64,000 bases of DNA from Bacteroidota bacterium (GTDB lineage Bacteria; Bacteroidota; Bacteroidia; NS11-12g; UBA9320). Below the pieces are notes generated by a model that saw nothing but the letters and a program-made list of their open reading frames with translations, was not told where the DNA came from and did no database searches. The stretch is from the NCBI GenBank assembly GCA_016124755.1, contig WGNA01000029.1:1-64000 (forward strand). Reading direction: 5' to 3'. How positions within the stretch are numbered: position 1 is the first letter of the stretch; the number at the start of each line of letters is the position of its first letter. Position numbers and translations under genes: made by a program. This document shows, one piece after another, positions 2,118-46,860 of the stretch.

Positions 2118-3300
2118 GGTTCACGCAAAGGCGCAGAAATTTTATTATCGATTTGAGATTTATCGTTCTGGAATTGGACATTGCTCTTCAAGGGGAACTT
2201 TATAGAGACGCAGTGTTTGCACATAAATGTGGTGAGTTTGGAATTAAGGAAAAGTGTGTTTTTCGATTTAGAAATGAGGTAGAAAAAATGCCGGGCTAAA
2301 GCCACCCCTCCCCATACGAAAGTTACGAAATCCGTGAAGAATGCGCAAAATTGGTGGGTGATTTAAGTACTTATCTTTGCAGGTATTGAGGTAAGATTTG
2401 GATTGAAGATGGTTTCACGCAGAGGCGCAGAAATTAATATTCGATTGAGAATGATCAAATTAAAATTGCATTATCATTTATGAAAGAACCAATAATATGA
2501 GTCACAGAGGTGGCACATGAATGTGCGGAGATCGCGTAGTTTGGAATTAAGGAATAGTGTATTTGTCAATTTAAAATGAGATCAAAAAAATGCCGGGCTA
2601 AAGCCACCCCTCCCCATACGAAAGTTACGAAATCCGTGAAGAACGTGCAAAAATGATGAAGGAATTAAGTACTTATTTTTATCGGGTATTGAGGTAAGAT
2701 TTGGATTGAAGATGGTTTCACGCAGAGGCGCAGAAATTAATATTCGATTGAGAATGATCAAATTGGAAATGCATTATCATTTATGAAAGAACCAATAATA
2801 TGAGTCGCAGAGGTGGTACACGAATGTGCAGAGATCGCGGGTTTTGAAATTAAGGAATAGTGAAATTGTCGTTCAGAATGTGATGTCGAAAAAATGCCGG
2901 GCTAAAGCCACCCCTCCCCATACGAAAGTTACGAAATCCGTTAACACTTTGAAATGAAAGAGGAGGAATTAAGTACTTATATTTATCGGGTATTGAGGTA
3001 AGATTTGGATTGAAGATGGTTTCACGCAGAGGCGCAGAAATTAATATTCGATTGAGAATGATCAAATTAAAATTGCATTATCATTTATGAAAGAACCAAT
3101 AATATGAGTCGCTGAGGTGGCACATGAATGTGCGGAGATCGCGGGTTTTGGAATTAAAGAATAGTGAAATTGTCGTTCAGAATGTGAAAAAAAAATGCCG
3201 GGCTAAAGCCACCCCGCCCCGGATGAAAATTCGGGATTTCGGAAGTAAGTCGCAAGAATGGCGGTTGATTTAAGTACTTATTTATTTGATTGCAAAACTT
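2118..3300. repeat. Array of about four ~303-bp non-coding tandem repeats (locus 1)
   Basis: Four units are read by the anchor ttcacgcagaggcgcag (2120, degenerate; 2414; 2717; 3021; spacing 294, 303, 304) and by a second anchor, atgccgggctaaagcc, at 2288, 2590, 2894 and 3195. In each unit the modules come in fixed order: gccgggctaaagccacccc plus a cgaaagttacg segment, then the palindrome AAGTACTT, then the cgcagaggcgcag phrase, then a GCACAT-GA-ATGTGC inverted repeat beside cggagatcgcg. Short open frames cross it, but frame is not kept between units, so it is not read as coding. A related array lies at 40.1-41 kb in inverse orientation. Confidence 0.9.
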
Positions 3301-40094: not shown

Positions 40095-40970
40095 CGACTA
40101 CAAACTCAAAGTGTAAACATCCCACCTCTGCGAACTCAAAACCTCTCTCTTTGATTTTCAAATGTTGATTCTCACCCAAATCTATTTGAGAACAAATTCT
40201 CCTGCGCCTCTGCGTGAAAAAATCCTAGCACCTTTCATCACTCGTTCAATTAAATAAGTACTTATTAATTCACCCGATAGATCCCCAATCCCAAATAATC
40301 CCGAACTTTCAATGGGGAAGGGGTTGGCGTAAGCCCGCAGTTTTTCCGTTCAAAAATTTCAGATTAAATCTTTTAAAATGCTGAATCAATATTTGATCCT
40401 TCTCCCAAACTCATAGCCTCTTCAAATCACCTCCGCGAACTCAAAACTTCTCTCTTTGATATCCAAATGTTGATTCTCAACTCCAACATTTTTGGAACTA
40501 ATTCTCCCGCGTCTCTGCGTGAAAAAATCCAAGCACCTTTCATCACTCGATCGCTTAAATAAGTACTTATTGATTCATTCGATTGATTCCCATTCCCGAA
40601 TCATCCCGAACTTTCAATGGGGAAGTGGTTGGCGTAAGCCCGCAGTTTTTCCGTTCAAAAATTTCGGATTAAACTCTTAGAATGCTGAATTAACATTTGA
40701 TCCCTCCCCCAAACTCAAAGTCTCTTCACATCAACTCCGCGAACTCAACACTTCTGTTTTAGATTTCCAAATGTTGACTTTTACCCAAATCTATTGGAGA
40801 ACAAATTCTCCGGCGCCTCTGCGAGAAAAAATCCAAGCACCTTTCATCACTCGTTCGCTTAAATAAGCACTTATTTATTCAACCGATAGATTCCCATTCC
40901 CAAATAATTCCGAACTTTCAATGGGGAAGGGGTTGGCGTAAGCCCGTAGTTCTAAATCAAACTTTAACTA
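40095..40970. repeat. Array of about three ~304-bp tandem repeats (locus 2, inverse orientation)
   Basis: Anchors: cgaactcaa at 40131, 40436 and 40740; aatggggaag at 40311, 40616 and 40920; the palindrome AATAAGTACTTATT (third copy aagcactt) once in each unit. Read on the minus strand, the modules appear in the same order as the array at 2.1-3.3 kb: tgcgggcttacgccaacccc, a gaaagttcggga segment, AAGTACTT, the cgcagaggcgcag phrase, then gttcgcggag. So the two arrays are one family. It replaces any gene between recR and ricT. No gene is seen here. Confidence 0.88.
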
Positions 40971-41001: not shown

Positions 41002-42396
41002 TTATTCCGGCTTCGGACGTTCACCTCTCGGCTTGCCGCCCGGTTTCCGGTTTTTAGATCCGGGTTTTCGATTTCCTTTATTACCGCCTTGCTGATTATT
41101 TCCTTCCGGTCGTGGTCCGTTAGCATTCGGTCGGTTATCCCGCTGTTCCCGTTTTTCCGGTTTGTCTTTATGTTGTTTATGTTCCTTAAGCGGTCTGTCG
41201 TTTTTGACCGGCCTGCCATCTTTTGCCTGAAAGCCGCCTTTTTTACCTTTTCGGTTTTTACCGCCTTTGTGCTTCTTCTTTTTGCGTGCTTCTTCCAGCT
41301 CATCCATTCGGTTGAGCGACTGATCCGAAATGAGATCCGGAGCGGGACCAACTTCTTCCGGAACAAACGAAGAAATCGGACGATCAACCAAAGTCTCGGG
41401 TCGTTCGCCACGATTGTTCATGGCAATAACTTCGTTTACCCGATCGAGATCCACCGCTACCCATTCCGAATTATTCGGATACGAAAACCAGAGCATCCGC
41501 TTCAGGATGTCGGTCTTTTGCAAATACGCCGGGCCTACTTTAGTTTCTACTTTAACCCTGTCCCCTTTCGGAAATTCTTCCAATGCTTCGAGGTAGGTAT
41601 CGAGCTCGTAATTCAGACAACATTTTAATCTTCCGCATTGTCCGGAAAGCTTTAACATGTTGATGGATAAATTCTGGTTTCGGGCTGCTCCCATGGTCAC
41701 AACCTTATAGTCGGTTAACCAGGTACTGCAACAAAGTTCTCGTCCGCAACTACCGATTCCACCCAATCGGGAGGCTTCCTCGCGGTAACTTACCTGACGC
41801 ATTTCGATCCGGGTTCTGAATTCGGCAGCGTATCGCTTTATTAATTCCCGGAAATCAACCCGGTCTTCTGCGGTATAAAAGAAGATTACCTTTCTACCGT
41901 CGCCCTGAAACTCAATATCACTGAGTTTCATCTCGAGTTTCATGCTCATGGCAATTGTCCGTGCCTTTTCAAGAGACGAAGGTTCTTTCGCCTTCATCGA
42001 CGTATAGGTTTCTTTGTCTTTATCGGATGCGAGGCGGTAAATTTTACGAATAGACTTGTCGTCTTCCGGAATGCCGTTTTTCTTGAGCTGAAGTCGAACC
42101 AGTTCACCGGATAAACTCACATGACCAACGTCGTGTCCCATATCGGATTCCACCACCACGGTTTGACCCGTGTACAAATCCAGATTCTCGGTATTTCGGT
42201 AAAACTCTTTTCGGCTGCCTTTAAAACGGACCTCAACAATATTGAACGGTTCGTAATCCGATGGAAGAATCATATGATTCAACCAATCGTAAGTATTGAG
42301 TTTGTTGCATGCCATGGTCGAACATCCTCCGTTCTGACCGCAACCGGGTGAACAAGAACCTCCGTCCTTGCCAGAGCCGCAATTTCCACATCCCAT
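41002..42396 (-). CDS. ricT: PSP1-domain protein RicT (YaaT) with Cys-rich start and basic tail
   Basis: A 464-residue protein. The N-terminus has six cysteines in a GCGNCGSGK-type glycine-rich stretch (C3, C6, C15, C19, C25, C30). The PSP1 domain (about 40-290) holds CGRELCC (217-223) and CGRLKCC (254-260). In B. subtilis RicT relatives work with RicA and RicF, bind [4Fe-4S] clusters and aid RNase Y. The last ~100 residues are a low-complexity tail of K, G, R, N and P, probably RNA- or ribosome-binding. The gene follows holB by 19 bp, a pairing also found in other phyla. Confidence 0.9.
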   Translation of the reverse strand: MGCGNCGSGKDGGSCSPGCGQNGGCSTMACNKLNTYDWLNHMILPSDYEPFNIVEVRFKGSRKEFYRNTENLDLYTGQTVVVESDMGHDVGHVSLSGELVRLQLKKNGIPEDDKSIRKIYRLASDKDKETYTSMKAKEPSSLEKARTIAMSMKLEMKLSDIEFQGDGRKVIFFYTAEDRVDFRELIKRYAAEFRTRIEMRQVSYREEASRLGGIGSCGRELCCSTWLTDYKVVTMGAARNQNLSINMLKLSGQCGRLKCCLNYELDTYLEALEEFPKGDRVKVETKVGPAYLQKTDILKRMLWFSYPNNSEWVAVDLDRVNEVIAMNNRGERPETLVDRPISSFVPEEVGPAPDLISDQSLNRMDELEEARKKKKHKGGKNRKGKKGGFQAKDGRPVKNDRPLKEHKQHKDKPEKREQRDNRPNANGPRPEGNNQQGGNKGNRKPGSKNRKPGGKPRGERPKPE

Positions 42397-46229: not shown

Positions 46230-46860
46230 AATTATTTCACCCCTTCGGGGTTGTTGACTGCATTTGAATTTTTCTATTAATATTTCATCCCTTCGGGATT
46301 GGGATTGTTGGTTTTATGATGTTCGATACTCGGCTGCTAACAACTACAGTATTTTGTTATGAATGATTGAAACTGGCAGGTTCTCAAAGACATTTCAATA
46401 TTTGCCTCGAACCTTTGCGTAACCAATGAGGTTTTTTTCGACTATATCAAAAATCCGCAGGGCAGAATTCAGAAATAGATTGCGGGTTAGGAATTATTGA
46501 TTGCAAATTTTTCACCCCTTTGGGGTTGTTGACTGCATTTGAATTTTTCTATTAATATTACATCCCTTCGGGATTGGGATTGTTGGTTTTATGATGTTCG
46601 GTACTTGGCTGCTAACAACTACAGTATTTTGTTATGAATTATTGAAACTGGCAGGTTCTCAAAGACATTTCAATATTTGCCTCGAACCTTTGCGTAACCA
46701 ATGAGGTTTTTTTCGACTATATCAAAAATCCGCCGGGCGGAATTCAGAAACAGATCGCGGTTTAGGAATTATTGATTGCAACTTTTTCACTCCTTCGGCT
46801 TGTTGCCTACGTGTGAATTTTTCGATAGTAATTTCATCACTATGGGAATGGGTTTGTAGC
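46230..46860. repeat. 275-bp tandem repeat array with UUCG hairpins
   Basis: The hairpin phrase caccccttcggggttgttg occurs at 46238 and 46513 (as tttgggg), with a decayed third copy at 46788; spacing 275 and 275. Each unit also contains atcccttcgggat, a second hairpin with a TTCG tetraloop, and a cctcgaacctttgcgtaacc phrase followed by gaggttttttt. The two full copies are almost identical over the whole unit, including non-hairpin sequence, so duplication is recent. No coding frame is kept. Confidence 0.88.

Follow-up and report, generated by a model that had tools for sequence, protein, structure and literature searches.

What are the tandem repeats of about 300 bp that occur at two loci, in opposite orientation, in a 64,000-nt stretch of a Bacteroidota genome (hereafter the window)? 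A preliminary description divided the repeat unit into four ordered modules and offered three readings: structured RNA arrays, protein-binding or nucleoid sites, or a non-autonomous element that amplifies in tandem. The array is probably neither structured RNA nor plain junk, and its unit is composed of two interleaved repeat families, here called A and B.

Two window arrays and their composite unit

Module A is about 95 bp long and consists of a C-rich box that holds a small inverted repeat (consensus GGGCTATAGCCACCCCTCCCCGGATGAAAGTT), 39 nearly free bases, and the palindrome TAARYRYTTA, which takes the form TAAGTACTTA in 19 of 85 copies. The B spacer is of the type cgcagagRcgcag and carries the motif TTTCACGCAGAGRCGCAG; this motif often precedes GAGTTCGCAGAG and a small inverted repeat, the stem of which differs from array to array (GCACATGAATGTGC, GCTCGTGAACGAGC or GCACGCGAGTGTGC). 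The four-module unit first proposed stands insofar as it has conserved modules; the palindrome given for it, AAGTACTT, is one variant of the degenerate one, and its cgcagaggcgcag phrase is part of B, which exists without A too. A, too, can stand without B: at loci L017 and L024 it forms direct A-A repeats of 100-101 bp. Exact matches to the B string CACGCAGAGRCGCAG number 39 in this genome; elsewhere in the class the string is sporadic, turning up in 10 other genomes among the 198 searched.

Tandem Repeats Finder places array 1 at 2237-3220 (period 304, 3.2 copies, 89% matches) and array 2 at 40123-40951 (period 304, 2.7 copies, 87% matches). A profile search combined with reading of the sequence puts A modules at 2287, 2590, 2894 and 3194 on the plus strand and at 40247, 40554 and 40857 on the minus strand. 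Two arrays in opposite orientation, with four and three copies, are therefore borne out, and the period near 304 bp in each agrees with the nearly constant period reported earlier. The features are as follows.

2118..2286, plus: leading B-type spacer, gttcacgcaaaggcgcag ... cacataaatgtg (direct reading; B motif scan)
2287..2381, plus: A module copy 1, C-rich box with GGCTAAAGCC, 39-nt centre, TAAGTACTTA (nhmmer profile E 4.9e-21; centre lengths)
2382..2589, plus: B spacer, TTTCACGCAGAGGCGCAG at 2413, inverted repeat GCACATGAATGTGC (B motif scan)
2590..2683, plus: A module copy 2 (nhmmer E 1.4e-20)
2684..2893, plus: B spacer, TTTCACGCAGAGGCGCAG at 2716 (B motif scan)
2894..2986, plus: A module copy 3 (profile match; 3' half of centre swapped relative to copy 2)
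2987..3193, plus: B spacer (direct reading)
3194..3288, plus: A module copy 4, terminal (centre 97% identical to A copies of contig C6; flanks unrelated)
40857..40949, minus: A module, first copy of array 2, GGCTTACGCC variant (profile match; 53 nt past the stop of the RicT-family gene at 41002-42396)
40554..40646, minus: A module, second copy of array 2 (profile match)
40247..40341, minus: A module, third copy of array 2 (profile match)
40100..40246, minus: trailing B spacer, tttcacgcagaggcgcag ... gagttcgcagag, from the last A to recR (reading; B motif scan; gene annotation)

Array 1 is neighboured by a convergent gene that ends 26 nt past the last A and by a gene that we read as putatively VIT1/CCC1-like, its sole NCBIfam match (TIGR00267) being below cut-off. 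Array 2 lies between convergent recR and RicT-family genes. A further tandem array in the window (46230-46823, period 275, 2.2 copies, 93% matches) contains CACCCCTTTGGGG and has no match to the A profile.

Elsewhere in the same genome (G000), genes of the GxxExxY / PF13366 family adjoin B-like CGCAGAG/CGCAAAG arrays that lack A, at L052 (contig C23, 41333-44680) and L051 (contig C9), the gene at L051 matching TIGR04256. This suggests that B-type repeats associate with the family.

Spacing, exchange and distribution of module A

The centre of A, measured between GAAAGWT and TAARYRYTTA, is exactly 39 nt long in 78 of 85 measured copies, the others being 31, 38 or 40 nt. Centres from different arrays are on average 38% identical and those of one array 46%, versus 27% for shuffled sequence, and the centres have a weak common pattern, CGG.ATTTT...CAAAAA, that is copied along with the unit. 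Most positions of the C-rich box hold 1-2 bits of information and the centre and flanks mostly 0-0.8, in keeping with the earlier claim that the modules are more conserved than the spacers. The palindrome and the B motif are less strictly spaced (6 to 47 nt, mode 43). Because the centre keeps its length at low identity while this second distance varies, we consider the 39-nt length to be specially constrained. A short peptide was entertained and rejected: 39 nt make 13 codons, and many copies have ATG AAA GTT ... TAA in frame, but no frame is notably freer of stops than the others. Each of the six frames of A has 34-48 stops, which upholds the statement that no coding frame explains the arrays.

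Discrete modules have been exchanged between loci, via transposition or recombination. The centre of window copy 4 is 97% identical to those of A copies on contig C6; the likeness runs from the C-rich box to the palindrome alone, and the DNA on both sides is unrelated. In other between-array pairs, shared blocks often start in the C-rich box or end at the palindrome, and some include B; the arrays on contigs C20 and C34 have long blocks in common, B included. Within array 1, the B spacer at 2382..2589 is 85-100% identical to the next B per 20-nt block, and 100% identical in most blocks, and units 2 and 3 have nearly identical B spacers, yet the 3' half of the A centre of copy 3 (2894-2986) matches that of copy 2 (2590-2683) at 8 of 20 positions. 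We have no better explanation for this swapped half-centre than exchange with another A copy. The C6 array also contains, beside a truncated A, a 194-codon ORF with a signal-peptide-like start and no assigned family (L103, 3321-3905).

A profile built from 66 copies matches A 87 times in this genome at E<=0.01, in about 27 intergenic places; both loci first described are present, and they are a small part of the whole. Most copies stand alone, and two inverted pairs were found, in the arrays L116 (4484-4675) and L117 (3028-3222) of contig C29; each of these arrays ends in two A copies that face each other across 12 bp and so make up a long inverted repeat.

By the same profile searches, on which all our genome-wide counts are based, only 4 of the 58 genomes searched in the same family and order (this one included) have any A match, and G008 is the sole clear match besides this genome (E 5e-9, partial). 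At class level, 7 of 295 genomes, again including this one, match at E<=0.001. With so few matches among relatives and in the class, we regard the A family as patchy and as expanded in this genome. An exact scan of genome contigs for the A box, in a set that possibly did not include this genome, gave 13 single matches in unrelated genomes, consistent with chance. We rejected a phage origin of A, as viral contigs contain no exact A-box match; the core sequence described below matched three viral contigs, in other contexts.

With respect to genes, the flank 5' of A is stop-facing in 21 of 27 cases (p 0.006) and the flank 3' of A in 17 of 28 (p 0.34), compared with 58% (44/76) in a small background of A-free gaps. 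Array 1 of the window is among the six exceptions on the 5' side and owes this to a probably spurious ORF, so that the true figure is probably 22. Of 26 arrays, 12 have convergent genes on either side. The preference for stop-facing flanks is modest and is compatible with A being tolerated where genes end.

A-like arms in other families

The A profile also matches, weakly (best E 9.7e-8), in two other families, f18 (genomes G073 and G269) and f4 (G204, G233 and G174), where the matched arms combine a C-rich box with AAGTT/AAAGTT. The arms of G073, G269, G204 and G233 face a core, TAAACGTTTATAAACG; those of G174 make up a short tandem repeat. Arms in f4 with an inverted repeat, a C-rich box and AAGTTCG adjoin a TAAACGTTTATAAACGTTTA core, and one arm is 28 nt from the core in nearly all measured cases, the other 53-54 nt. 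Seven of the eight long arms in f4 have a half-palindrome of the A type at 39 or 40 nt, a count that uses a loose pattern and includes several near-duplicates, leaving about five or six independent observations. Helical phasing across lineages (27-28, 39 and 53-54 nt) was considered and dropped: the distances are no clean multiple of a turn, and the 53-54-nt arms resolve into 39-40 nt plus the core. The preliminary description would have taken the units for junk had they shown neither conservation elsewhere nor orientation bias; we find like-spaced arms in another family and a modest preference of A for the post-stop position.

Of 395 genomes, 25 carry the core TAAACGTTTATAAACG, at as many as 30 strand-counted sites in one genome, and the reversed control is near zero. 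Neither the core nor the B motif string cgcagagacgcagag was found as text in the literature searched. In several genomes the core is alone near genes, once or a few times per genome. Solitary copies lie between genes that we read as ssb-like and zinc-ribbon-like in several families (L151-L153, L165, L166, L173). TAAACGTTTATAAACG may be the operator of a conserved regulator.

Explanations for module A

We hypothesize, with a probability of about 0.5, that A is a non-autonomous extragenic element, similar to REP/BIME repeats or MITEs, that may have spread as a discrete unit and formed arrays by recombination together with B. A protein, whether a transposase, a recombinase or an architectural protein, would read both A ends at their 39-nt spacing and would move or maintain A in trans, and insertion would be tolerated beside gene 3' ends. 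Two direct A copies flanking B could then, by unequal recombination or slippage, duplicate A-B into 300-bp tandem arrays, and exchange between arrays would reshuffle modules at A boundaries. Of the three original proposals, the non-autonomous element that amplifies in tandem is the best supported. Neither an empty site nor a target duplication was seen, nor any presence/absence difference between strains; the nearest genomes compared are of the same family only, and transposition is therefore something we infer from sequence. Tandem duplication and inter-array exchange are evident in the arrays and could also move A by homologous recombination alone.

Binding sites under host selection would be just as likely to show this fixed spacing, so that the original suggestion of protein-binding or nucleoid sites fits it too, although we rank it below a spreading element. 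Under this possible but rather doubtful alternative, A is a bipartite site for a protein (nucleoid, supercoiling or regulatory) that sets the 39 nt, and the arrays organise or insulate the chromosome by gene ends. Conservation of spacing rather than sequence in two distant families argues for it, as do the resemblance of TAARYRYTTA and the core TAAACGTTTATAAACG to dimer-binding sites, the solitary cores near genes, and the preference of A for gaps between convergent genes. However, A is nearly absent from genomes of the same family, which is hard to reconcile with an essential host site, its copy number and array form differ sharply among lineages, and window copy 4 looks copied from elsewhere.

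It is unlikely that the arrays are simply intergenic DNA, with neither function nor mobility of its own, that underwent tandem duplication and gene conversion. The near identity of the array 1 B spacers over long stretches, and the long blocks, B included, common to the C20 and C34 arrays, are what such a process would leave, but drift does not readily account for a 39-nt centre in 78 of the 85 copies when identity is only 38%, nor for an equal length in another family.

Among known systems, MITEs resemble A in being non-autonomous, intergenic, present in many copies and without a coding frame, and in another family two A-like arms face each other; A here is mostly single, however, and such copies have no bounding terminal inverted repeats, and no parent transposon is present in the loci read. 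Inverted arrangements do occur, in the two pairs here and in arms of other families. Pneumococcal BOX elements are modular, repeat tandemly within, lie between genes and are restricted to a species, and they are described with a stable stem-loop. The A arrays share the modular box order, the internal tandem repetition, the intergenic position and the restriction to a species, but A has no consensus fold, a distinction drawn from the description of BOX rather than from its sequence. As in CRISPR arrays, conserved blocks of A flank a variable stretch of fixed length; judged on the repeats alone, the A blocks differ in being degenerate, with centres that have a weak common pattern and are copied with the unit. 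Integron attC sites are similar in that sites recur and boundaries are exchanged, and the C6 array has an ORF between A copies; again judged on the repeats alone, A differs in that its ends are not mutually complementary, it has no consensus fold, and its spacers are generally without genes. The Bacteroidetes SOS boxes CTAA-N5-TTAG and GGA-N5-TCC (PMC8565304) recall the TAA-N4-TTA of A but are differently spaced.

Overall, A resembles an extragenic dispersed repeat whose closest kind is REP/BIME, yet we do not file it as a REP. It is extragenic, of high copy number and clustered, as REPs are, and like REP/BIME repeats it is short, bears palindromes, reaches about 100 copies in arrays, and is patchy between genomes. 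REP/BIME systems with RAYTs have GTAG- and CGTC-tagged palindromic repeats in units of 20-40 bp, and CGTC repeats occur without a dedicated transposase (PMC3733652, PMC8266576). In contrast, A has two separate palindromes at 39-nt spacing in 95 bp, with no long hairpin, and its aligned conserved block has no GTAG or CGTC beside the inverted repeat.

That A is nevertheless an ordinary REP mobilised by a RAYT (Y1 tyrosine transposase) is improbable. The genome has three Y1_Tnp genes, and A has a small inverted repeat in intergenic arrays, but neither a complete A module nor a core is present at ten Y1_Tnp loci of six genomes, where only one lone GAAAGTTCGG occurs (L221), and G204, a 100% complete genome with A-like arms and 15 core sites per strand, has no Y1_Tnp match. 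We rejected RAYT mobilisation of A on this lack of linkage, and no encoded mobiliser of any kind is linked to A in the loci examined. One RAYT of this genome has a GTAG-tagged hairpin of its own, AAGCCCTTAAGGGCTT, different from A. At L032 (contig C1, 204383-207724), a Y1 (RAYT-like) gene has hairpins on both sides, one of them GTAG-tagged (GTAGAAGCCCTTAAGGGCTT), a REP-like unit unrelated to A.

Structured RNA arrays, the first of the original proposals, are highly improbable: the C-rich box has a three-base-pair inverted repeat in GGC/GCC, GGT/ACC and GGTT/AACC versions, which is consistent with a DNA palindrome, and the small B inverted repeat has several different stems, but the RNAalifold consensus for A is -0.02 kcal/mol with no covarying pair, eight single A copies fold no better than shuffles (z-scores -1.7 to +1.1), covariation across 49 non-redundant centres plus the palindrome is near chance (8 of 1035 position pairs at p<=0.01), and no Rfam family matches the window.

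The usual explanation of extragenic bacterial repeats invokes a hairpin and a RAYT; what the A family conserves is a distance rather than a hairpin. The same distance in a distant family of the class points to a protein that measures it. Tentatively, and against the odds as we judge them, this could be a new, class-wide kind of element, in which two palindromic boxes 39-40 nt apart would be read by a conserved putative protein that either moves the element without a linked transposase gene or organises gene 3' ends.
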